Below, piece by piece: positions 140-40,339 of a DNA stretch of 46,905 nucleotides. A program made the translations under genes and the position numbers. The stretch spans positions 1 to 46,905 of the forward strand of contig CADBKG010000009.1 of assembly GCA_902795215.1 (NCBI GenBank), read 5' to 3'. Within the stretch, counting starts at the first letter, position 1. Every line of letters starts with the position of its first letter. A model generated the notes under the pieces. That model saw nothing but the letters and a program-made list of their open reading frames with translations, was not told where the DNA came from and made no database searches. Origin of the DNA: an uncultured Erysipelotrichaceae bacterium (lineage in GTDB: Bacteria; Bacillota_I; Bacilli_A; RF39; UBA660).

Positions 140-2152
140 TTAAAATAACTTAAATAAATAATAGAAATAATAGAACTTGGCTGGTGATGATGATTTTAGT
201 GATGCCGTAGCGTCGTAAAACATTCCAAAGAATTCATATAACATTGACATAAATATTAGAACTAAACATGCATTTATAAATATTCTTTTGTATTTTGGTT
301 CTTTAATTGCATTATAAATAGTATATAAAATTATTATTGTTGCAAGAATTAACATCCATGCATAATCCAAATGATATCTTGGAAGTATTCCACTCATCTG
401 TGTATCAACAAGTATTACAATTAAACTTGAGATTATTAAAAATCTTACAATTCTATATAATTTTTGATCCTTAAATAATTTTTTGAATTTATAAAAAACA
501 ATAGTAATTACTGTTATTATATGAGTAAAAATAAAACCACCATACATAGTTTCATATGTTGTATATCCTATGTAATTACTAAATAGTTTCATGCCTTCTA
601 CATAAGGGAAAGTTAGTGTCATATTAAATGGCATGAATAAATAATACATTATACCTATTGGCCATCTTGCAAATACAAATCCTCTATGAGTCATATCATT
701 AGTTGTTAAATTATAATTTGCCCCAAAATCAAATGGTGATCCAAATCTAGCATAATTATAACCCATTGTTATACTTGCTACTATAATATAAGGAATTATA
801 ATTGCTAAGAATTCCTTATATTTACTTTTTTTGAATTCTTTTTTATTTTTAAAGAAATAATCATAATAAAGAGGAATAAAAATTATAGTTGCTATTAAGA
901 ATTGAGGCCTTGATAAAGCCGTTAATGCCATAAGTGTAGATCCAATAGCTAGTTTTGTTTCAGTAAGCTTTTTATTTTCACTAGCATCGATAATTAACGC
1001 AAGACCTAAAGTCACTATAAATATACTCATTATAATTGGAATTGTATATAAATCCGGCCTTTTTGCTGCAAATATTGTTCCACAAGAGAAAAACATTAAG
1101 ATAAACGTAAGCATATACATACCGAGTGACATGTTTTTAAACCATTTTTTACATATTATATATAATAAGTATCCAACAGATATTATAGACATAAGTGCTA
1201 AAATAAATGCTACAACATAATTATCAATATGTGTGCCTGTTATAACATAATATGGTAAGTATATAAGCATTACCGGTAATGCACCAAAGTAAACATAGTA
1301 CTTTCCTTTATAATAAGCATAATCCCATAAATAATCTTCGCTAGTAATAAAATGAGCTTTTTTTCTGGCACCATAATCATATGGATTATCCATAACTTGT
1401 AATGCTTTAGATGGTGTTTCATCAATATAAACTTGTCCCTTATAGAATGCTTCTGTAAGCTTTTGATATTCTAAAGAAGTATCTAATGCTCTAGTTTTAA
1501 ATAAAGGATTAATGTTGACTGCAAATATACATAAAGAAACCATAACTAGCATTAATGCTACCACATAGAAATAACTATCTTCATCGAGTAATTTTCTTTT
1601 ATAAAGACTTGAACTTGGTCTAAACAAATAGAAAAACGCTACTACTCCTAATATAAACATAAACCTTACAAATGAAAACATAAACGGAATTTTTGAATTT
1701 AAAGATATTTTATTGATTTTTAATCTATGCCCATTTAAGCCAGAAAAATATATTTCCATGCTATCTGACTTTCCACTTAAATACAAATTATGATAAGTGC
1801 TCCTTTTTGTTTTAGTATTAATATTAAAAGTAGGCAATTTAAGTTTTTCACTGTTGGCTTCATCAGTTGCATATATAGTTACATCTATGACTTCTTCTTT
1901 TTTTGTAGAATCTTCAACATCGACATTTATTGTATTAATCTTTTCGTTTAAATTATCAAAGTATATACATGCTTTTGATGAATTAGAAATAGTATAACTA
2001 CCATCATTATTAATATCTAACCCTTCACAAATTTTATAATGTGTTTCAACTGGCCTTAATAAACGGGTTTTAAAAAAATTAAAATTAAATATAAAAGTTT
2101 CTATGAGTATAGTGATAATAATAATTTTTAATAATGATTTATATTCTTTCAT
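140..2152 (-). CDS. GT-C fold membrane glycosyltransferase-like protein
   Basis: The 670-residue polytopic protein has one N-terminal membrane segment (about 8-28), an extracytoplasmic beta-rich domain (about 35-150), then about ten further membrane spans to the C-terminus. Around residue 470 it has a YNYARFGSPFDFG stretch, a pattern common in PMT/ArnT-like GT-C enzymes that use a lipid-linked sugar donor on the outer face. Donor and acceptor cannot be told. Start: ATG at 2152 with AGGGTGA seven bases upstream, which overlaps the stop of the SEL1 gene 11 bases away, so the two genes are co-transcribed. There is no terminator of its own before the IS end at 128. Confidence 0.6.
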   Translation of the reverse strand: MKEYKSLLKIIIITILIETFIFNFNFFKTRLLRPVETHYKICEGLDINNDGSYTISNSSKACIYFDNLNEKINTINVDVEDSTKKEEVIDVTIYATDEANSEKLKLPTFNINTKTKRSTYHNLYLSGKSDSMEIYFSGLNGHRLKINKISLNSKIPFMFSFVRFMFILGVVAFFYLFRPSSSLYKRKLLDEDSYFYVVALMLVMVSLCIFAVNINPLFKTRALDTSLEYQKLTEAFYKGQVYIDETPSKALQVMDNPYDYGARKKAHFITSEDYLWDYAYYKGKYYVYFGALPVMLIYLPYYVITGTHIDNYVVAFILALMSIISVGYLLYIICKKWFKNMSLGMYMLTFILMFFSCGTIFAAKRPDLYTIPIIMSIFIVTLGLALIIDASENKKLTETKLAIGSTLMALTALSRPQFLIATIIFIPLYYDYFFKNKKEFKKSKYKEFLAIIIPYIIVASITMGYNYARFGSPFDFGANYNLTTNDMTHRGFVFARWPIGIMYYLFMPFNMTLTFPYVEGMKLFSNYIGYTTYETMYGGFIFTHIITVITIVFYKFKKLFKDQKLYRIVRFLIISSLIVILVDTQMSGILPRYHLDYAWMLILATIIILYTIYNAIKEPKYKRIFINACLVLIFMSMLYEFFGMFYDATASLKSSSPAKFYYFYYLFKLF

Positions 2153-3775: not shown

Positions 3776-5170
3776 TTATTTAATTTTATATATAGTTCCT
3801 TCTCTTGTGTCGATAAGTTCAATTCCCTTTTCAGCAAGTTCATTACGAATACCATCTGCTTCTTGGAACATATGATTTTTCTTATATTCAGCTCTTTGCT
3901 CGATAAGTTTTTTTATTTCCTCATCTTGTGGATGAATTACATCATGTTTTTCAGTAACCAGATCTAAACTTAATACTTTATCAAAACTTCTAAGTAATTC
4001 AGTCTTAGTTTTACCATTTAAACTATCATCTTTTAATACGTCATAAACAACTGTTATTGCATTTGCAGTATTAATGTCATCTTTAAGAGAGTTCATAAAT
4101 TTTTCTTTATAATCATTAAATGCTGCTTCCATTAGTTCTCCATCCTCTGGAATCATTTTAACTCTATTTATTAATTTATCATATGCTTTCTCGTTTTGAT
4201 CAAGAGCTTCATAAGTAAATTCCAATATTTTACGGTAATGACTATTAAGCACCATATATCTATATGCAAGAGGATTATATCCTTTTTCTATAAGAGTACT
4301 TATAGTAATAATATCTCCTTTTGATTTACTCATTTTAGAGTCTTTTAAGTTTAAATGTTCTACATGGAACCAATAATTACACCATTTATGACCCAGATAG
4401 CTTTCAGATTGAGCAATTTCATTTGTATGATGTGGGAATATATTATCAACGCCACCACAGTGAATATCAAGATACTCTCCCAAGTATTTAATGCTTATTC
4501 CAGAACATTCAATATGCCATCCTGGATAACCAACACCAAAAGGACTATCCCATTTTAATTCTTGATCTTGAAATTTACTTTTAGTAAACCAAAGTACAAA
4601 GTCACCTTGATTTCTTTTTTCTTTGTCTTCTTCAACCCCTTCTCTAACGCCAACAACCATTTCATCTATTTTATGATTAGTTAATTTATAATAATCATCT
4701 AATTTACTTATATCAAAATATACATTTCCACCAGCTTGATATGCAAAACCATCCTCTAATAGTTTTGTAATTATTTTTATATACATATCTATATTTTCAG
4801 TGGCAGGAGATATTATTGCAGGTTTTTTAATATTTAATTTTTCACAATCATTAAAAAATGCATCTGTATAAAACTTAGCTATATCAAGAACACTTTTGTT
4901 TTCCTTAACAGCACTATCAACCATTTTATCCGTGCCAGAGTCAGAATCGCTTGTTAAGTGACCAACATCGGTTATATTCATTGCTCTTGTAACATAATAA
5001 CCTACATATTTTAAGGTTTTTTCTAAGACATCTTCACATATATATGAACGTAAATTACCAATATGGGCATAATGATATACAGTTGGACCACACGTATACA
5101 TCTTAACCGTTTCAGGTACATTTGTTAAAAACTCTTCTACTCTATGAGTTAAGGTATTATATAATCTCAT
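3776..5170 (-). CDS. cysS: Cysteinyl-tRNA synthetase
   Basis: This class I synthetase charges tRNA-Cys with cysteine using ATP in the cytosol. At 464 residues it has the normal family length. Visible: the Zn-ligand Cys27 in MYTCGPTVY, the HIGN signature at 36-39, the second zinc region (HIECSGIS then HCGGVDNIFPHHTNE), and KMSKSKG near 280. The C-terminal helical bundle (anticodon binding) is present. ATG at 5170 follows GAGGAGTGAGATT. It lies 45 bases downstream of the ClpC-like gene and is probably in the same operon, ending in the terminator at 3752-3775. No editing domain is expected in this family. Confidence 0.97.
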   Translation of the reverse strand: MRLYNTLTHRVEEFLTNVPETVKMYTCGPTVYHYAHIGNLRSYICEDVLEKTLKYVGYYVTRAMNITDVGHLTSDSDSGTDKMVDSAVKENKSVLDIAKFYTDAFFNDCEKLNIKKPAIISPATENIDMYIKIITKLLEDGFAYQAGGNVYFDISKLDDYYKLTNHKIDEMVVGVREGVEEDKEKRNQGDFVLWFTKSKFQDQELKWDSPFGVGYPGWHIECSGISIKYLGEYLDIHCGGVDNIFPHHTNEIAQSESYLGHKWCNYWFHVEHLNLKDSKMSKSKGDIITISTLIEKGYNPLAYRYMVLNSHYRKILEFTYEALDQNEKAYDKLINRVKMIPEDGELMEAAFNDYKEKFMNSLKDDINTANAITVVYDVLKDDSLNGKTKTELLRSFDKVLSLDLVTEKHDVIHPQDEEIKKLIEQRAEYKKNHMFQEADGIRNELAEKGIELIDTREGTIYKIK

Positions 5171-8754: not shown

Positions 8755-9936
8755 TTATTCAACGATTTCAGATACTGAACCAGCACCTACAGTTCTACCA
8801 CCTTCACGGATTGAGAACTTAGTACCTTTTTCAAGAGCTACTGGGCTGATTAGTTCTACAGACATTTCAACGTTGTCACCAGGCATAACCATTTCAACAC
8901 CTTCAGGTAATTCAATTACACCAGTAACGTCAGTTGTTCTGAAATAGAATTGTGGTCTGTATTTTGAGAAGAATGGAGTATGTCTTCCACCTTCTTCTTT
9001 AGTTAGTACGTATACTGAAGCTTTGAATTTATGATGAGGAGTAACTGATCCTGGTTTAGCAAGAACTTGTCCTCTTTCAACTTCATCTCTAGCAACACCA
9101 CGTAGTAATACTCCGGCATTGTCTCCAGCTTCTGCATAGTCTAAGCTTTTTCTAAACATTTCGATACCAGTTGCAACTGTTTTCTTAGTTTCTTTAAGAC
9201 CAACGATTTCAACTTCATCATTAAGATTTAATTGTCCTCTTTCAACACGTCCTGTAACAACAGTACCACGTCCTGAAATTGTAAATACGTCTTCAATACT
9301 CATTAAGAATGGTTTATCAACGTCACGAACTGGATCAGGAATATATTCATCAACTGCGTCCATTAAGTCATGAATAGATTTTTCTGCATCAGCATCTCCT
9401 TCAAGAGCTTTAAGTGCAGAACCTCTAATGATAGGACATTCAGTATCAAATCCATATTCTCCAAGTAATTCTCTAGTTTCCATTTCTACTAGATCAATTA
9501 GCTCTGGGTCGTCTACTAAATCACATTTGTTTAAGTAAACAACGATTTTAGGAACACCAACTTGACGAGCAAGTAAGATATGTTCTCTAGTTTGGGCCAT
9601 AGGTCCATCTGTAGCAGCAATAACTAAGATTGCTCCATCCATTTGTGCTGCACCAGTGATCATGTTTTTAACGTAGTCAGCATGTCCTGGACAGTCTACG
9701 TGAGCATAATGTCTTTTATCAGTTTCATACTCAACGTGAGCGGTATTGATAGTAATACCACGTTCTCTTTCCTCAGGTGCACTATCGATTTGAGAATAAT
9801 CTTCAAATTTAGCTTTACCTTCTTTTGAAAGTACCTTAGTAATAGCAGCTGTTAAAGTTGTTTTACCATGGTCTACGTGTCCAATAGTACCTATATTAAC
9901 ATGAGGTTTAGAACGATCAAATTTTTCTCTTGCCAT
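8755..9936 (-). CDS. tuf: Elongation factor Tu
   Basis: EF-Tu delivers aminoacyl-tRNA to the ribosomal A site as a GTP complex. At 393 residues it is full length. GTPase motifs: GHVDHGKT (19-26), DCPGHADY near 80, NKCD near 135. Domains 2 and 3 follow with the usual [12 protein letters not shown] and [14 protein letters not shown] segments. It is the last gene of rpsL-rpsG-fusA-tuf, 64 bases after fusA, with its own AAAGGAAAGAA ribosome site and the terminator at 8728-8750. Codon use is the most biased in the window, as expected for a highly expressed gene. Confidence 0.99.
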
Positions 9937-10000
9937 AATATTCTTCCTTTCCTTTTTTCTACTATATTATTTTATCTAATACTTGAATAAATATCAAGTA

Positions 10001-12079
10001 CTATTTTTCTTGAGCGCCGTTTTTCTTTATGATTTCATCGGCGATATTTTTTGGAACTTGTTCATAATGATCAAGTAATGCTGTAAATGTTGCACGTCCT
10101 TGTGAACAACTACGAAGTGATGTTGCAAGTCCGAACATTTCTGATAGTGGCATCATTACAGTAATTTGTAAAGCATTACCACGAGATTCTTGTCCCATTG
10201 GTTTACCTCTACGACTTGTAAGTTCTCCCATTACAGCTCCCATATATTCTTCTGGTGTTACTGTATCAACCTTCATGATTGGTTCAAGAAGTACTGGACT
10301 ACATTTTTTAGCGGCATCTTTAAGTGCTAAACTAGCAGCAACTTTAAATGCAGCTTCAGATGAGTCTACTTCGTGGTATGATCCATCATAAAGTGTTGCT
10401 TTAACATCTACAACTGGATAACCGGCAATCATACCACCAGCCATAGCTTCTTGTAATCCTTTGTCTGTAACTGGAATGTATTCACGAGGAACTACACCAC
10501 CAACTACTTCATCAACAAATTCATAACCCTTATCTGGGTTAGGTGCAAAACGTATTCTAACATGTCCGTATTGTCCACGTCCACCAGATTGTTTAATGTA
10601 TTTACCTTCACATTCAGCTTCTGCAGTAATAGTTTCACGATAAGCAACTTGTGGCTTACCAACATTACATTCAACGCCGAATTCTCTTTTCATTCTTTCA
10701 ACTTCAACTTCTAAGTGAAGTTCACCCATACCACTAATAACTGTTTGACCAGTTTCAGCATCAGTCTTATATCTAAATGTTGGGTCTTCTTCAGCAAGTT
10801 TTTGAAGAGCTACTGCAAATTTATCTTGATCATCTTTTTTCTTTGGTTCAATAGCTTCATCAATAACTGGATCAGGGAATTCCATACCATTCATAATAAC
10901 AAAATGCTTTTCATCACAAAGTGTATCAGCAGTTGTAGTATTTTTAAGTCCTACTGCAGCAGCTATTTCTCCACAGTATACTTCACTTATTTCTTTTCTT
11001 GAATTAGCATGCATCTGTAAGATACGTCCAATTCTTTCTTTAGTGTTTTTAGTACTATTTAGTACATAAGAACCACTTGATAATTTACCAGAGTAAACTC
11101 TAAAGAATGCAAGTCTACCAACAAATGGGTCAGTCATTATTTTAAACGCCATTGCCATAAAAGGTTCATTATCACTTGGTTTACGTTTAACTAAGTTACC
11201 ATCTTTGTCAGTACATTCAATTGATTCAACATCAGTAGGTGCTGGTAAGTAATCTATAACAGCATCTAATGCAAGTTTTACACCAATGTTGAAATGAGCT
11301 GTACCACATAATACTGGGAAGAACTTAGCAGCAAGTACACCTTTACGGATAGCGCTTTTAATTTCTTCAACAGTAAGCTCTTCTCCTTCAAGATATTTTT
11401 CCATAAGTTCATCATCGAACTCAACAGCTTTTTCAATAAGTTCTAATCTCTTAGTTTCAACAATATCTTTTAAATCATCAGGAATTTCAATTTCAGTCAT
11501 ATTTTCATGTTGTTCTTTATCAAAATGATAGGCTTTTTTACTAACTAAATCAATAATTCCATCAAAATTTCCTTCTGCTCCTATTGGCCATTCAATTGGT
11601 GCAAAATTAACTCCCAATCTTTCATCAATAGTTTTTAAAGTATATTCGAAATCTGCACCAATCTTATCCATTTTATTTGCAAATATTAATCTTGGTACAT
11701 TATATTCAGTAGCTTGCCTCCAAACAGTTTCTGATTGTGGTTCAACACCAGCTTGCGCATCAAGAACCATAATAGAACCATCTAGAACTTTAAGACTTCT
11801 TTGAACCTCAACAGTAAAGTCTACGTGTCCTGGGGTATCTATGATATTTAATCTATATCCCTTCCAATGACAAGTAGTGGCAGCACTGGTAATAGTGATA
11901 CCTCTTTCCTTTTCTTGGTCCATCCAGTCCATTTGTGATTCACCATCATGTGTTTCACCAATTTTGTGTGTTATTCCTGTATGAAATAATACTCTTTCAG
12001 TAAAAGTAGTTTTACCAGCATCGATATGTGCCATAATACCGATATTTCTTAATTTATCAATTGATACATCTCTTGCCAT
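10001..12079 (-). CDS. fusA: Elongation factor G
   Basis: This translocation GTPase moves tRNA-mRNA on the ribosome and helps recycling. It has 692 residues, the usual length. Motifs: AHIDAGKTT (17-25), DTPGHVDFT near 85, NKMDK near 138; the domain IV segment [10 protein letters not shown] is present. The start codon is 10 bases after the rpsG stop, and the ribosome site GGTAGGTGA overlaps that stop, so translation is probably coupled. No fusidic-acid-type oddity can be judged by eye. Confidence 0.99.
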
Positions 12080-12089
12080 CTACTTTCAC

Positions 12090-12557
12090 CTACCATCTAA
12101 AGTGTGCAAATGCCTTATTAGCTTCTGCCATCTTATGAGTATCTTCTCTCTTTTTAACGGCTCCACCAACTCCATTTGCAGCATCCATTATTTCCCCTGC
12201 TAATTTATTAGCCATTCCTCTTCCAGATCTTAATCTAGAATAATTTACAAGCCAACGAAGTGCTAATGTTTGAGCACGTGAATCACTAACTTCAAGCGGA
12301 ACTTGAACGTTAGATCCACCAACTCTACGAGATTTAACTTCTAAAGCTGGTTTAATGTTTTCCATTGCTTTAGTAAATACTTCCATTGGATCTTGTTTTG
12401 TTTTTTCTTTAATTTGATCAAATGCACCATATAAAATCTTTTCAGCAGTACCTCTTTTACCATCTTTCATAATTTGATTGATAAGTTTAGTAACTAACTT
12501 AGAATTATATATAGGATCTGATAAAACTTCACGCTTTTCAGCACGTCTTTTACGCAT
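12090..12557 (-). CDS. rpsG: 30S ribosomal protein S7
   Basis: The 155-residue small-subunit protein nucleates assembly of the 16S 3' domain. The family pattern is clear: [51 protein letters not shown], and ending AHFRW. It is 17 bases downstream of rpsL and 10 upstream of fusA. In enterobacteria S7 regulates this operon by binding the rpsL-rpsG gap; here that gap is only 17 bases, too short for that structure. Confidence 0.99.
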
Positions 12558-12574
12558 ATTTATCCTCCTTTATC

Positions 12575-12988
12575 TTAATTTTTTGGTTTTTTAGTTCCGT
12601 ATTTACTACGTCCTTGTTTACGATCATTAACTCCTTGAGTATCTAGTGTTCCTCTAACAATGTGATAACGTACACCGATAAGGTCTTTAACACGTCCTCC
12701 ACGAATTAGTACTACACTATGTTCTTGTAAGTTATGTCCTTCACCTGGAATATAAGCATCTACTTCTCTTCCGTTTGATAATCTAACACGAGCATATTTT
12801 CTTAAAGCTGAGTTAGGTTTCTTTGGAGTTTTAGTACCAACACGAGTACAAACTCCTCTCATTTGTGGATGATTTGTTTCTGTAGGTTTTCTTTTAAGGC
12901 TGTTTAATCCATTGTTTAATGCTGGACTTTTTCCTTTTCTAACCTTTTTGCTTCTTCCTTTTTTTACAAGTTGTGAAATTGTAGGCAT
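12575..12988 (-). CDS. rpsL: 30S ribosomal protein S12
   Basis: S12 sits at the decoding centre and controls accuracy. The 137-residue sequence contains [12 protein letters not shown], with the lysine whose replacement causes streptomycin resistance still present, and [11 protein letters not shown], where the methylthiolated Asp of proteobacteria would be but is not (an N-L-Q context). First gene of the str operon, with ribosome site AAAGGAAG and a ~90-base leader carrying two hairpins. A promoter lies at 13084-13112. Confidence 0.99.
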
Positions 12989-13005
12989 ATTAACTTCCTT
13001 TCTAT

Positions 13006-13065
13006 ATACACCACTCCTGGTGTATCAAACTTCTCATAAATCAAGGTTCTACCTGAGGTAGAACC
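13006..13065 (-). promoter_or_regulatory. Two hairpins in the rpsL leader
   Basis: Reading the minus strand, a 9-bp perfect stem (GGTTCTACC, 13065-13057 with 13053-13045) with a three-base loop is followed by a 7-bp stem (ATACACC / GGTGTAT, 13025-13006). The loop of the second shows AGGAGT, a ribosome-site look-alike. The true ribosome site follows 12 bases later. Neither stem is followed by a T run, so they are not terminators as they stand. They could be an autoregulatory site or mRNA stabilisers; this is inference. Confidence 0.6.
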
Positions 13066-13083
13066 AAAATTAATTGCAAAAAT

Positions 13084-13112
13084 AATATATCATAATAATA
13101 TATGCTAGTCAA
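13084..13112 (-). promoter_or_regulatory. Sigma-A promoter of the str operon
   Basis: TTGACT (13112-13107), 17-base spacer, TATATT (13089-13084) on the minus strand. The predicted transcript would start near 13077, leaving about 90 bases of leader before rpsL. Confidence 0.8.
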
Positions 13113-13124
13113 GATGTTTTTTGA

Positions 13125-13478
13125 CTATTTTTCTAATTTTTTTTCATCAAATCCTTCACTTGTATAATTTTTGCATTTTAAATAAGCTTTATATTTACTT
13201 ACACCTGTTTTATTTGTAATTACAACGTATCCATCACAATCACCAATTTCAGGAGTATAACCATTATTTTTAAGCTCGTTAACTGTCATAACTTTACTTT
13301 TTCCCACTTTAGGAAGTAAACCAGGATACTGTCCATAATATTTTTCGGCTTGTTCAACAGTTAAATTTTCAAGTATGTTATTAGCATTATGTGATTTTAA
13401 ATAAAGGCATATAGCAGTAATTCCTCCTACTAATGCTAACATTATAATCCCCCAACCAATAAGCAACTTATTATTCAT
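13125..13478 (-). CDS. Small membrane-anchored protein of unknown function
   Basis: A 117-residue protein with one N-terminal membrane helix (about 6-27) and an exposed domain of ~90 residues. A Cys pair (GDCDGYVVIT and AYLKCKNYT) may form a disulfide outside the cell. The DGYV-x-Y-x-AYLKC arrangement recalls the pilin-like or secreted domains I associate with related uncultured Bacilli, but I cannot name the family. The gene starts 8 bases inside the end of lysS, so it is translationally coupled to it. The start is ATG at 13478. Function unknown. Confidence 0.6.
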   Translation of the reverse strand: MNNKLLIGWGIIMLALVGGITAICLYLKSHNANNILENLTVEQAEKYYGQYPGLLPKVGKSKVMTVNELKNNGYTPEIGDCDGYVVITNKTGVSKYKAYLKCKNYTSEGFDEKKLEK

Positions 13479-14976
13479 CTTTCTTTTTACCTTCCTCTGG
13501 TCTCATAGTTGGGAACAAAATAACTTCTTGAATAGATTCTTGTTCTGTTAAAAGCATAACAAATCTATCAATTCCGTATCCGATTCCTCCTGCAGGCGGC
13601 ATACCATATTCAAGAGCTTCTACAAAGTCCATATCGATATCATTAGCTTCTTCGTTACCTAAATCTCTTTCTTTAATTTGAGCTTCAAATCTTTCTAACT
13701 GATCAATTGGATCATTTAATTCTGTATAAGCATTTGCAAACTCTTTACCACCGATAAATAATTCAAATCTTTGAGTAAATCTAGGATCATCTTTATCCTT
13801 TTTAGTAAGAGGACTAATCTCGATTGGATGACCATATAAGAATGTTGGTTCTATTAAAGTATCTTCAACATATTCTTCAAAGAATTTATTTATTATATGT
13901 CCATATTGTTTTTCATGATCTAATAATTCTATATGATGCTCTTCTGCAAGCTTAATACATTCATTAACATCAGTAATTGCTTTAAAATCTATACCTGTTT
14001 TTTCTTTAATTGCGTCTGTCATAGATATTTTTTTAAATGGTTTAGATAAATCTATTTCATTTCCATACCAATTAAACTTAGTTTTACCAACCGCTTCTTT
14101 AGCAACATATCTATACATACGTTCAGTTTGATCCATCATACCATCTAAATTAGAATATGCTTTATATGCTTCCATTATAGTAAATTCAGGATTATGTCTA
14201 GGATCCATTCCTTCATTTCTAAATGCTCTTCCTATTTCATAAACTGATTCCATACCACCAACAAGTAGTCTTTTTAGTGGTAACTCTAGTGCAATACGCA
14301 AATACATATCTAAATCAAGAGTATTATGATGAGTAATAAATGGTCTAGCACTAGCACCAGTAAGCAATGTGCTAAGTATTGGTGTTTCTACCTCCACATA
14401 ACCTTCTTGTTCCATAAATTCTTGAATTTTACGAATAATTTTAGGTCTTAAGAATGCAATTCTTTTTGACTCTTCATTCATTATTAAATCTACATATCTT
14501 CTTCTAAATCTTTCTTCAATATCGGTTAACCCATGGAATTTTTCTGGTAATGGTTTTAATGCCTTAACTAGATGAGTATACTCTAAACATTTAATAGTTA
14601 CTTCATCAGTTCTAGTTTTCATTACTTTACCCTTAACTCCAATAATATCTCCTATATCAGCCGTTTTAAATAAAGCATATGTATCTTCACCAACATCATT
14701 AATTGAAATATATATTTGAATTTTACCAGTTTTATCTTGAATAGATATAAATGATGCTTTACCCATTTTTCTAATAAACATTATTCTTCCTGCTACGGTT
14801 ACAATATCTTCTCTTGATTCAAAATCATCATGAGGGATATCTTTAAATTTATCTTTTATTTCAGCAGCAAAAGAATCTCTTTTAAAAGCATCTCCAAAAG
14901 GATCCATATTTAGTTCTTTAAATTTTTCTAATTTTCCTCTTCTAACTAATTCTTGTTCTGTAAATTTTCTTTCCAT
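13471..14976 (-). CDS. lysS: Lysyl-tRNA synthetase, class II
   Basis: It attaches lysine to tRNA-Lys. At 501 residues it has an N-terminal OB fold (about 55-150, anticodon binding) and a class II catalytic core with motif 2 (GRAFRNEGMDPRHNPEFT) and motif 3 (GIGYGIDRFVMLL) near the C-terminus. It is the class II, not the class I, enzyme. The promoter at 15000-15028 overlaps the terminator of the upstream M23 gene. The stop overlaps the start of the small membrane protein gene at 13478. Confidence 0.98.
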   Translation of the reverse strand: MERKFTEQELVRRGKLEKFKELNMDPFGDAFKRDSFAAEIKDKFKDIPHDDFESREDIVTVAGRIMFIRKMGKASFISIQDKTGKIQIYISINDVGEDTYALFKTADIGDIIGVKGKVMKTRTDEVTIKCLEYTHLVKALKPLPEKFHGLTDIEERFRRRYVDLIMNEESKRIAFLRPKIIRKIQEFMEQEGYVEVETPILSTLLTGASARPFITHHNTLDLDMYLRIALELPLKRLLVGGMESVYEIGRAFRNEGMDPRHNPEFTIMEAYKAYSNLDGMMDQTERMYRYVAKEAVGKTKFNWYGNEIDLSKPFKKISMTDAIKEKTGIDFKAITDVNECIKLAEEHHIELLDHEKQYGHIINKFFEEYVEDTLIEPTFLYGHPIEISPLTKKDKDDPRFTQRFELFIGGKEFANAYTELNDPIDQLERFEAQIKERDLGNEEANDIDMDFVEALEYGMPPAGGIGYGIDRFVMLLTEQESIQEVILFPTMRPEEGKKKDE

Positions 14977-38607: not shown

Positions 38608-39303
38608 TTACCTACCTATAATATCCCATGATGTTAAAATTCCTATTACTTTTTCTGTTTTTGATCCACTGTGCGTAACCATTACACATGATAGTTTTTT
38701 ACCAGCTTTAAACTCTTTAACAAAATCATTAACAACATCATCATATAATTTATCTCTTTTAACAAATTTAACTATCTCTTTTGAATTATCAAATGCTATA
38801 CACTCTTTAATATCACTAAACTTTTTATCTTCATCAACTTCTATGATTTTATCTTTTAATAAATACTGAAAAATAGAGTTTTCACTAAATATTCCAACAA
38901 GTTCTTTTTTTGAATTATCTAAATATATTGGTATATGTGTATAGTTGTTTTCGTTCATTTTTTTCATAACATCTAAAACATTATCATCTAGACAAGCTGA
39001 GAAAACATTTTTAGTAGCTTTATTTTCTACTTTGAAAGGATGCTTAACTTCTTCAACAATTTTTTCGAGTTTTTCAATAGTATTATCGGTTATTAAATAG
39101 TAGTCATCATTTACGTTATGAAAATTCATATTTCTAAGTCTTCTACAAAAATCAATAAAACTATCTTCTCTAACATAAGGATTATATCCTTTTTCTTTTA
39201 GTTTGTTTGTACACTCTTCTAAAGTTAAATTTTTATCGACTCTCTTTTTTGTTTCTTCTTCAAATTCTAAAAATAATTTTGTGAATATCTCATGATTGTT
39301 CAT
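38608..39303 (-). CDS. CBS-domain protein with N-terminal helical domain
   Basis: The 231-residue protein has an N-terminal helical domain (about 1-90) and a CBS pair (about 105-230: SACLDDNVLDVMKKMNENNYTHIPIY, then LSCVMVTH-x-VIGILTSWDIIGR). CBS pairs bind adenine nucleotides such as ATP, AMP, SAM or c-di-AMP; no effector domain is attached, so it may sense a nucleotide and act on its operon partners. Start ATG 39303 after AGAGGTGA. The promoter at 39323-39350 shares its -35 with the divergent methyltransferase promoter. Confidence 0.75.
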   Translation of the reverse strand: MNNHEIFTKLFLEFEEETKKRVDKNLTLEECTNKLKEKGYNPYVREDSFIDFCRRLRNMNFHNVNDDYYLITDNTIEKLEKIVEEVKHPFKVENKATKNVFSACLDDNVLDVMKKMNENNYTHIPIYLDNSKKELVGIFSENSIFQYLLKDKIIEVDEDKKFSDIKECIAFDNSKEIVKFVKRDKLYDDVVNDFVKEFKAGKKLSCVMVTHSGSKTEKVIGILTSWDIIGR

Positions 39304-39322
39304 AGCACTCACCTCTAGGGTT

Positions 39323-39350
39323 ATTATATCATAACGGGGTTAATTGACAA
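39323..39350 (-). promoter_or_regulatory. Promoter of the CBS operon, overlapping the divergent promoter
   Basis: On the minus strand TTGTCA (39350-39345), 16-base spacer, TATAAT (39328-39323) preceded by TGA. Five of the six -35 positions are also the -35 of the plus-strand promoter. Confidence 0.7.
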
Positions 39351-39372
39351 AACCCTCTTTTTTTGTTATATT
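39344..39372 (+). promoter_or_regulatory. Promoter of the methyltransferase leader
   Basis: TTGACA (39344-39349), 17-base spacer, TATATT (39367-39372) with TGT upstream. It would start transcription near 39379, about 190 bases before the methyltransferase gene. Confidence 0.85.
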
Positions 39373-39376
39373 ATTT

Positions 39377-39440
39377 GCGTAATAAATCAATTAGTTATTC
39401 GCGTTTTATTACCGTGACACTCTTTGTGAGTGGGGTTAAT
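39377..39440 (+). promoter_or_regulatory. Two 5' hairpins of the methyltransferase leader
   Basis: First hairpin: GCG-T-AATAA (39377-39385) with TTATT-CGC (39395-39402). Second: CACTC / GAGTG (39418-39422 with 39428-39432), extendable by ACC / GGT outside. The second ends just before the GGGG ribosome site of the leader ORF and partly covers it. Confidence 0.5.
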
Positions 39441-39441
39441 A

Positions 39442-39474
39442 ATGATAAGAACCTTAGAATCTCATCATGAATGA
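39442..39474 (+). CDS. Leader peptide ORF, 10 codons
   Basis: ATG 39442 to TGA 39474 encodes MIRTLESHHE. GTGGGG lies six bases upstream. Codons 3-5 lie in the 5' arm of the terminator hairpin and the last codons in its second stem, so a ribosome stalled here would block the hairpin. This is the design of macrolide, phenicol and other antibiotic-resistance leaders, but the sequence matches none I know. Confidence 0.55.
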   Translation: MIRTLESHHE

Positions 39475-39536
39475 CAAATATATCACAGGAAAATTATGTG
39501 GTAGGTTTTGCTGTTCATGAAAGGAGGTTCTTTTTT
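39447..39536 (+). terminator. Long leader terminator (attenuator) before the methyltransferase gene
   Basis: AAGAACCT (39447-39454) pairs with AGGTTCTT (39525-39532), followed by a T run (39531-39536). Inside, TCATGAA (39465-39471) pairs with TTCATGA (39514-39520), and TATCACA (39481-39487) with TGTGGTA (39497-39503). It lies between the promoter and the gene, so transcription should stop unless the 5' arm is occupied. Confidence 0.7.
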
Positions 39537-39568
39537 AATACCACACAATAAAGAAAGAAGGTAAAATT

Positions 39569-40339
39569 ATGAAAGAAGAAAACGAATTAACGTATTATGA
39601 AAAAGTAAAAGATTGGAATTTTGATTCATTTGAAATCGAGTCTGATTATCTAACAAATTGGAATTTATATGAACTATTAAACAAACTTGCAACTAAAGAT
39701 TCAAAAATATTAGACTTAGGAACTGGTGGAGGAGAAAAAGTGTTAAAAAGTTTTCCTGAATGCAAGGAAATACTTGCAACTGATTATTCACAAGAAATGA
39801 TAAACACTGCGAATGAAAACTTGAAAAAAAGTGGAAGAAAAAACATTACTTTTAAAGTAATGGACAATTTAAAAATGAATGTACCTGATGATTATTTTGA
39901 CTTCGTAGTAGCAAGAAACACTCCAACTGACCCAAAACAAATATACAAATGTTTAAAAGATGGAGGTTACTTATTCATACATGGTGTTGATAAGTTTGAC
40001 TGCTATGCATTAAAACTAATATTTAAAAGAGGGCAAGGAACTGATTCACTAAAACCTATAAGCATTGTTGACTATGAAAACGTTTTAGAAGCAGGATTTA
40101 AAAATGTAGAATTAATTCCTCTTCACGTAAGAGAATATTTCAAAAATCGAGAATCTTTTAAAGCATTTTTACAAAAGGTTCCTATAATAAACGATTTTGG
40201 TGATGACAAAGACAAGTTTGGTTACCCAATAGAAGATGATTTGTTAGATCAATACATTGAAGAAAACACTTATAATGGCAAAATTCGTTTACTTAGAAGA
40301 TATTACGGAATTGTCGCTCAAAAACAAAAAAAGATTTAG
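39569..40339 (+). CDS. Class I SAM-dependent methyltransferase under attenuation control
   Basis: A 256-residue methyltransferase with the Rossmann motifs LDLGTGGGE (motif I, about 49-57), TDYSQEM (motif II) and DYFDFVVARN (motif IV); the substrate-binding C-terminal part (about 150-256) holds ELIPLHVREYFKNRE and ends RRYYGIVAQKQKKI. I recall close relatives in Clostridia labelled only as methyltransferases. The substrate could be rRNA, a small molecule or an antibiotic; the attenuated leader favours a resistance role, by inference. AGAAGG precedes ATG 39569. A strong terminator follows. Confidence 0.75.
   Translation: MKEENELTYYEKVKDWNFDSFEIESDYLTNWNLYELLNKLATKDSKILDLGTGGGEKVLKSFPECKEILATDYSQEMINTANENLKKSGRKNITFKVMDNLKMNVPDDYFDFVVARNTPTDPKQIYKCLKDGGYLFIHGVDKFDCYALKLIFKRGQGTDSLKPISIVDYENVLEAGFKNVELIPLHVREYFKNRESFKAFLQKVPIINDFGDDKDKFGYPIEDDLLDQYIEENTYNGKIRLLRRYYGIVAQKQKKI

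Follow-up and report, generated by a model that had tools for sequence, protein, structure and literature searches.

The vmlR leader of Bacillus subtilis responds to ribosomes stalled at the start codon of a three-codon open reading frame (ORF) that tolerates changes in its sequence, and the toeprint of the stalled ribosome lies 16 nt downstream of the A of the AUG (PMC9226507). A comparable architecture is found in the rli80/hflXr leader of Listeria. Both leaders are around 190-220 nt long, contain a minimal, variable ORF whose start is buried in structure, and have an intrinsic terminator upstream of the resistance gene that follows (PMC9226507, PMC6310831). Ribosome-mediated transcription attenuation is also reported for bmrCD, which encodes a multidrug ABC exporter of B. 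subtilis made up of the two subunits BmrC and BmrD (PMC4191407). Direct sensing of antibiotics by riboswitches, on the other hand, is contested, and the aminoglycoside case in integron cassettes is reported to have been rejected (PMC9410878).

The leader described here occupies positions 39379-39545 of a 46,905-nucleotide contig from an uncultured Erysipelotrichaceae bacterium, the whole of which is referred to as the window. It is one member of a structured, strongly conserved leader RNA with a transcription terminator. With the vmlR and rli80/hflXr leaders it shares its length, the minimal and variable ORF with a buried start, and the terminator ahead of a resistance-type gene, a likeness drawn without sequence alignment, no Rfam relation to either having been found. 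It differs from them in having an invariant 5' hairpin (P1), a putative ribosome site that pairs with codons 3 and 4 of the ORF it serves, and a helix (HC) that reaches across the U-tract, whereas in the vmlR leader an anti-antiterminator is defined and a hairpin covers the ribosome site of the gene itself. Behind the present leader stands a gene for a methyltransferase of small-molecule type or for an ABC exporter instead of one for an ABC-F protein or HflX. A control like that of bmrCD is proposed, although the exporter in this case is one half-transporter (~561 aa) and the short ORF is of variable length. A further parallel is offered by orphan riboswitch candidates, with a 5' hairpin bearing a near-invariant loop, covarying stems, a terminator as expression platform and linkage to transport and modification genes; unlike these, the present leader was found only in a few uncultured lineages and has the start of an ORF inside the element. 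It is very probably an attenuator RNA, most likely a cis-acting, default-off transcription attenuator of resistance-type genes. It probably switches on detoxification genes.

Promoter, helices and terminator

A sigma-70-type promoter, TTGACA-17-TATATT (39344-39372, plus strand), agrees with the consensus at 11/12 positions and sets the predicted +1 at ~39379, which gives a leader of ~190 nt before the gene start at 39569. The initial annotation, made from the letters alone, had reported a near-consensus promoter, a 190-base leader, a ten-codon ORF and a hairpin ending in six T, and all four are present, the ORF (MIRTLESHHE-stop) at 39442-39474 and the T-run at 39531-39536. When the 192-nt leader was folded, as had been proposed, it reached -43.2 kcal/mol (z -2.94), a value that 0/200 shuffles equalled. 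A promoter-like sequence stands at the same distance from P1 in homologous leaders. At the curated gathering score, no Rfam 15 family, whether T-box, known riboswitch or known leader, matched the leader, either in the window itself or at eight loci homologous to it, and a lax search with the leader returned only implausible sub-threshold matches. On its other side, the promoter faces the upstream end of a divergent gene for a CBS-domain protein (38608-39312, minus strand), beside which a second promoter-like match is found on the minus strand (39350-39323).

About 55 full-length copies of the leader were found, making the observation larger than had first been stated. Covariation was counted over 52 aligned leaders for P1, P2 and the terminator and over 56 for helix HA; the shuffle controls ignore the relatedness of the leaders, so that the resulting numbers are not probabilities. 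In the structure composed of terminator, P1 and P2, 97.1% of cells are paired and 10 pairs have changed on both sides, a score reached by 0/500 shuffles, while slid controls gave 38-53%. Most of this covariation is carried by P1 and P2, the terminator being nearly invariant.

P1 (39379-39412, plus strand; stem 39379-39386/39405-39412) forms the predicted 5' end of the RNA and carries the loop TCAATTAGTTATTCGCG; 96.4% of its cells are paired, with five pairs changed on both sides. The loop is nearly invariant and is the most conserved part of the leader, an invariance forced in part by the search pattern in the genome_contigs loci; leaders not selected by pattern are L025, L027, L109 and L110. 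In L109 and L110 the loop AATTNG..ATTCGCG is kept on stems that are altered in the former and largely rewritten in the latter. Together with the covariation of the stem, this is the behaviour looked for in a riboswitch, in which aptamer-like nucleotides are held while helices covary. The second hairpin, P2 (CACTC/GAGTG, 39418-39432, plus strand), is 92.6% paired, and all four of its counted pairs are double-changed; it is evidently dispensable, because it has been deleted in L071.

Helix HA (39434-39453, plus strand) joins GGTT (39434-39437), next to or within the putative Shine-Dalgarno sequence, to AACC (39450-39453) in codons 3-4 of the short ORF. Counted by script, as the aligner had misplaced a one-base gap, 221/224 cells are paired over the 56 leaders, whereas 2000 shuffles gave 139 on average and 172 at most. 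The helix is complete in 54/56 leaders and takes the form GGTT/AACC in subtype 1 and AAGG/CCTT in subtype 2, with TAGG/CCTA and GAGG/TCTC as further variants.

The intrinsic terminator (39456-39536, plus strand) consists of a lower stem, AGAATCTC (39456-39463) with GAGGTTCT (39524-39531), an upper stem (39465-39478/39507-39520) and the adjoining U-tract (39531-39536). It lies between promoter and gene, and its main stems are 97-100% paired over 52 leaders (lower 99.8%, upper 97.6%), with a compensatory change in L082. It forms in the free fold, where P1, P2 and HA coexist with it. The arm originally proposed, AAGAACCT (39447-39454), can indeed pair with AGGTTCTT, but it is not the conserved terminator arm; its place is taken by the neighbouring AGAATCTC, an almost unchanging arm with a compensatory change in L082, and the AACC inside AAGAACCT pairs back with GGTT instead. 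The alternative pairing TTATGTGGTA/TACCACACAA across the U-tract, also put forward there, proved to be real and covarying. It corresponds to HC (39497-39545, plus strand), in which TGTGGTA (39497-39503) in the terminator loop pairs with TACCACA (39539-39545) downstream of the U-tract; HC is 94.1% paired with four double-changed pairs, and the score of P1 plus HC was reached by 0/500 shuffles.

Downstream genes and spread of the leader

The controlled gene in the window (39569-40339, plus strand) encodes a class I SAM-dependent methyltransferase of 256 aa (Pfam Methyltransf_31/25/11). Pfam and NCBIfam returned general class I methyltransferase models only, none above the NCBIfam cut-off, and no Erm/KsgA (rRNA adenine dimethyltransferase) model matched in either. 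Foldseek places an AlphaFold model (pLDDT 88.9) closest to JHAMT, GtmA, OxaG and comparable enzymes acting on small molecules, and VIA-align (Z 19-20) places it closest to YcgJ and TleD, among others; RlmA(I) and tRNA m1A58 enzymes are matched in fold as well. By its model the enzyme resembles small-molecule methyltransferases and not Erm/KsgA; small molecules and RNA are both candidate substrates. The suggestion of an Erm-like resistance rRNA methyltransferase was dropped, as the family models lend it no support and the fold matches are mainly small-molecule enzymes. The protein also matches PADLOC mad2 of the MADS system (residues 26-203, E 6.9e-19), which probably reflects a shared methyltransferase domain only; the mad2/mad3 matches were rejected, as they look like generic methyltransferase and ATPase similarity. 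The ABC protein found behind other copies of the leader is of the MsbA/LmrA type, with only general matches to MsbA and multidrug exporters. The two genes are unrelated, and both are predicted to be of resistance or detoxification type.

Distant homologues of the methyltransferase are found in other settings. One, on plasmid p1 of Streptomyces angustmyceticus (27% identity), is surrounded by queE, a 6-carboxytetrahydropterin synthase (queD-like), folE, a 7-cyano-7-deazaguanine synthase (queC-like) and oxygenases, a run of genes (9887-14338) that looks like a deazapurine natural-product cluster. Another, on pMEGANia of Niallia taxi (29% identity), has a different leader of its own (4763-4910), in which a nine-codon ORF (MSFRHVRSN-stop) with a strong ribosome site is accompanied by a promoter (TTTACA-17-TATAAT) and a terminator-like hairpin, AAAAAGGG/CCCTTTTT. 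The Niallia leader, as read from its sequence, lends mild support to attenuation control of this methyltransferase family. Beyond the window's own genome, no close homologue of the methyltransferase turned up when the proteins of 167 more genomes of the phylum were searched.

A search of the family (291 genomes) with the leader DNA brought up matches, with identities reaching 92%, in front of methyltransferases whose proteins are 45-70% identical; some matches stand before other genes. A scan of genome_contigs with the P1-loop pattern gave 58 loci, 52 of them with the whole element; the other six (L056, L064, L066, L067, L070, L081) lack every other feature and were discarded as chance matches. 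The downstream gene at the 52 loci is a methyltransferase in 27 cases and a half ABC exporter of ~561 aa in 21. Two loci (L076, L088) have a complete leader without either gene, perhaps through gene loss, and at two (L052, L053) the contig ends.

A first covariance model (R1) found the leader in ten genomes among 385 of the order, all from the same family. A second (R2), run on 395 genomes of the class, yielded one from another family; in 392 of the phylum, the window's own genome was the sole match. The leader is missing from all four other members of the genus that were searched, so its presence is patchy. The confirmed carriers among named records are all metagenome-assembled, and the copies come mostly from gut or rumen genomes; none was found in plasmid, phage and viral collections.

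In the pairs compared, P1 is 100% identical and the rest of the leader 90-100%, against 66-84% for the promoter and 70-86% for the gene (DNA). On these sequences, the leader is more conserved than gene or promoter, and its conservation is bounded by the ends of the RNA. Between L063 and L075, leader identity is 96% and methyltransferase protein identity 52%; an ABC leader (L044) is 93% identical to a methyltransferase leader (L091); and each of the two leader subtypes occurs with each of the two genes. A compact RNA of this kind, more conserved than the genes behind it, sometimes joined to a diverged gene and placed before two unrelated detoxification-type genes, amounts to a portable control element in uncultured gut and rumen bacteria. 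In one genome (G152, L003) a methyltransferase with 70% identity has no leader. Leader remnants without P1 are found at L127 (G471, 1599-1683, minus strand) and L112 (G172, 1479-1563); at L127 the leader's 3' half continues into the apparent last codons of a methyltransferase gene, a junction that is likely a deletion scar.

Ribosome or P1 as the possible sensor

Of the short ORF (39442-39474, plus strand) only the AUG is conserved family-wide, being kept in 55/56 leaders. Its peptide reads MIRT-stop in 11 leaders, MIRTLESHHE in four, M(K/M)SL with many different ends in subtype 2, and MN-stop in L110; its length ranges from 2 to 42 codons, and a one-base difference between the subtypes shifts the frame of the common downstream sequence. 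The initial annotation had regarded the ten-codon ORF as the sensed peptide, opening the terminator when a ribosome stalls on it. Its reading of the locus as a terminator-bearing attenuator before a resistance-type gene holds, and the attenuator is conserved, but the sensed peptide is not supported: the alignment of homologous leaders that it had called for brought out compensatory changes in the arms, but no conservation of the ORF beyond the AUG. Peptide-specific stalling on MIRTLESHHE was rejected, since neither sequence nor frame is conserved; the options left are stalling at the start codon, in the manner of vmlR, and the absence of any translation.

The trigger of read-through may well be a ribosome stalled at the first codons, as in vmlR, although this preference is held tentatively. 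Transcription would start at the base of P1, and P1, P2 and HA would fold. By default, the hairpin at 39456-39531 and the U-tract would then end transcription before the methyltransferase gene, with HA, which hides the ribosome site, either keeping initiation low or serving as a pause hairpin. An inhibitor would hold the ribosome at the start or first codons of the minimal ORF (AUG at 39442). With codon 4 in the P site, the ribosome should cover the whole lower 5' arm of the terminator; at the AUG it should remove two to three base pairs next to the U-tract. RNA polymerase could then continue into the gene, whose product would modify or export the toxic compound, and HC could form in the read-through RNA only. 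When a ribosome was masked in silico at codon 4, the mean pairing of the terminator lower stem fell from 0.80 to 0.00 in all 52 leaders; masked at the AUG, only the bottom pairs were lost (0.80 to 0.58). The anatomy therefore allows ribosome-controlled read-through, and on this modelling ribosome-controlled induction is plausible. It is favoured by the resistance type of the downstream genes, by the almost universal AUG and by conservation that is bounded by the RNA ends, within which the terminator, HA, P1, P2 and HC covary or are held. Against it stand the non-conserved peptide, an antiterminator that lacks covariation support, and ribosome sites which, among the examined leaders with an AUG, range from -6.8 to -1.1 kcal/mol and are very weak in L069, L082, L100, L109 and L110. 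Moreover, the divergent leader L027 (G132) has lost both the AUG and HA, yet retains P1, P2, the terminator and HC. The ribosome model also leaves the role of P1, with its invariant loop, unexplained; P1 may be a second input.

It is also possible, though less readily accepted, that the leader is a riboswitch-like or protein-controlled antiterminator, in which P1 with its invariant loop, possibly together with HA and the loop AATAATGA, would bind either a small molecule or a protein. Binding would stabilize an alternative fold, for instance a pseudoknot of HA and S2 that takes the 5' arm of the terminator, leading to read-through, and the AUG would be structural. A loop that stays unchanged while its stem is largely (L110) or partly (L109) replaced would be expected of such a sensor, as would conservation beginning at the RNA 5' end and the survival of P1 and terminator in L027; in the genome-wide scan, every P1 outside the chance matches lies within a full leader. 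The weak point is S2 itself, ATGATAAG (39442-39449) with CTCATCAT (39461-39468; whole stem 39442-39468, plus strand), a weak stem and the sole candidate antiterminator. Its complementarity in nearly all leaders and its compensation in L027 speak for this reading, but it is mostly invariant and has one standing mismatch, L027 giving the only compensation and L044 a G-U pair; no covariation-supported antiterminator was found in the aligned leaders, and their equilibrium fold contains the terminator rather than S2. The AUG and the purine-rich site upstream of it, kept in most members, also speak against this reading, and the loop invariance is free of the search pattern only in the four leaders named above.

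It is unlikely that an undescribed riboswitch-like RNA is at work whose sensing domain, P1, binds the toxic compound directly; a bolder version is that the P1 loop mimics 16S helix 31. The P1 consensus AATTNGNNNATTCGCG and the host helix 31 string AATTCGAAAATACGCG match at 11/12 conserved positions, a likeness noticed post hoc and reached by 6/300 shuffled controls. No 16S was found in the window's own assembly, and relatives were therefore used: window 39389-39403 was compared with the 16S rRNA of a genome of the same genus (G210, L138), and a similar helix 31 string is present in two leader-bearing hosts. The helix 31 positions that contact tetracycline vary in P1. General ungapped alignment of the leader with the 16S locus did no better than shuffles, and other similarities to 16S (AAGAACCTTA, TCATCATG) were discarded, being confined to part of one subtype. 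The resemblance is a lead, not a result; if true, it would mean target mimicry, a 30S-targeting drug being sensed through a P1 loop that copies helix 31 of the host. More generally, the invariant loop would either assist sensing by the ribosome or constitute a new natural aptamer that recognizes a toxic compound; the inducing compound is directly testable in a laboratory reporter.

There is little to recommend the view that nothing is switched, the leader being a fixed partial terminator and mRNA-stabilizing 5' element that sets a low basal level. The free fold does hold all the well-supported helices except HC together, and the terminator has no proven mutually exclusive partner; however, an ORF start in the terminator footprint, an invariant P1 loop and a covarying HC exceed the needs of a fixed terminator, and the position of the leader ahead of two unrelated genes of detoxification type is a sign of regulation. 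Finally, P1 can hardly be a DNA operator for a repressor at +1, as its stem, an inverted repeat at the predicted start site, might suggest: its loop is asymmetric, the helices behind it are plainly RNA, and its closing pair is G-C, G-U or A-U and never A-C, as in RNA.
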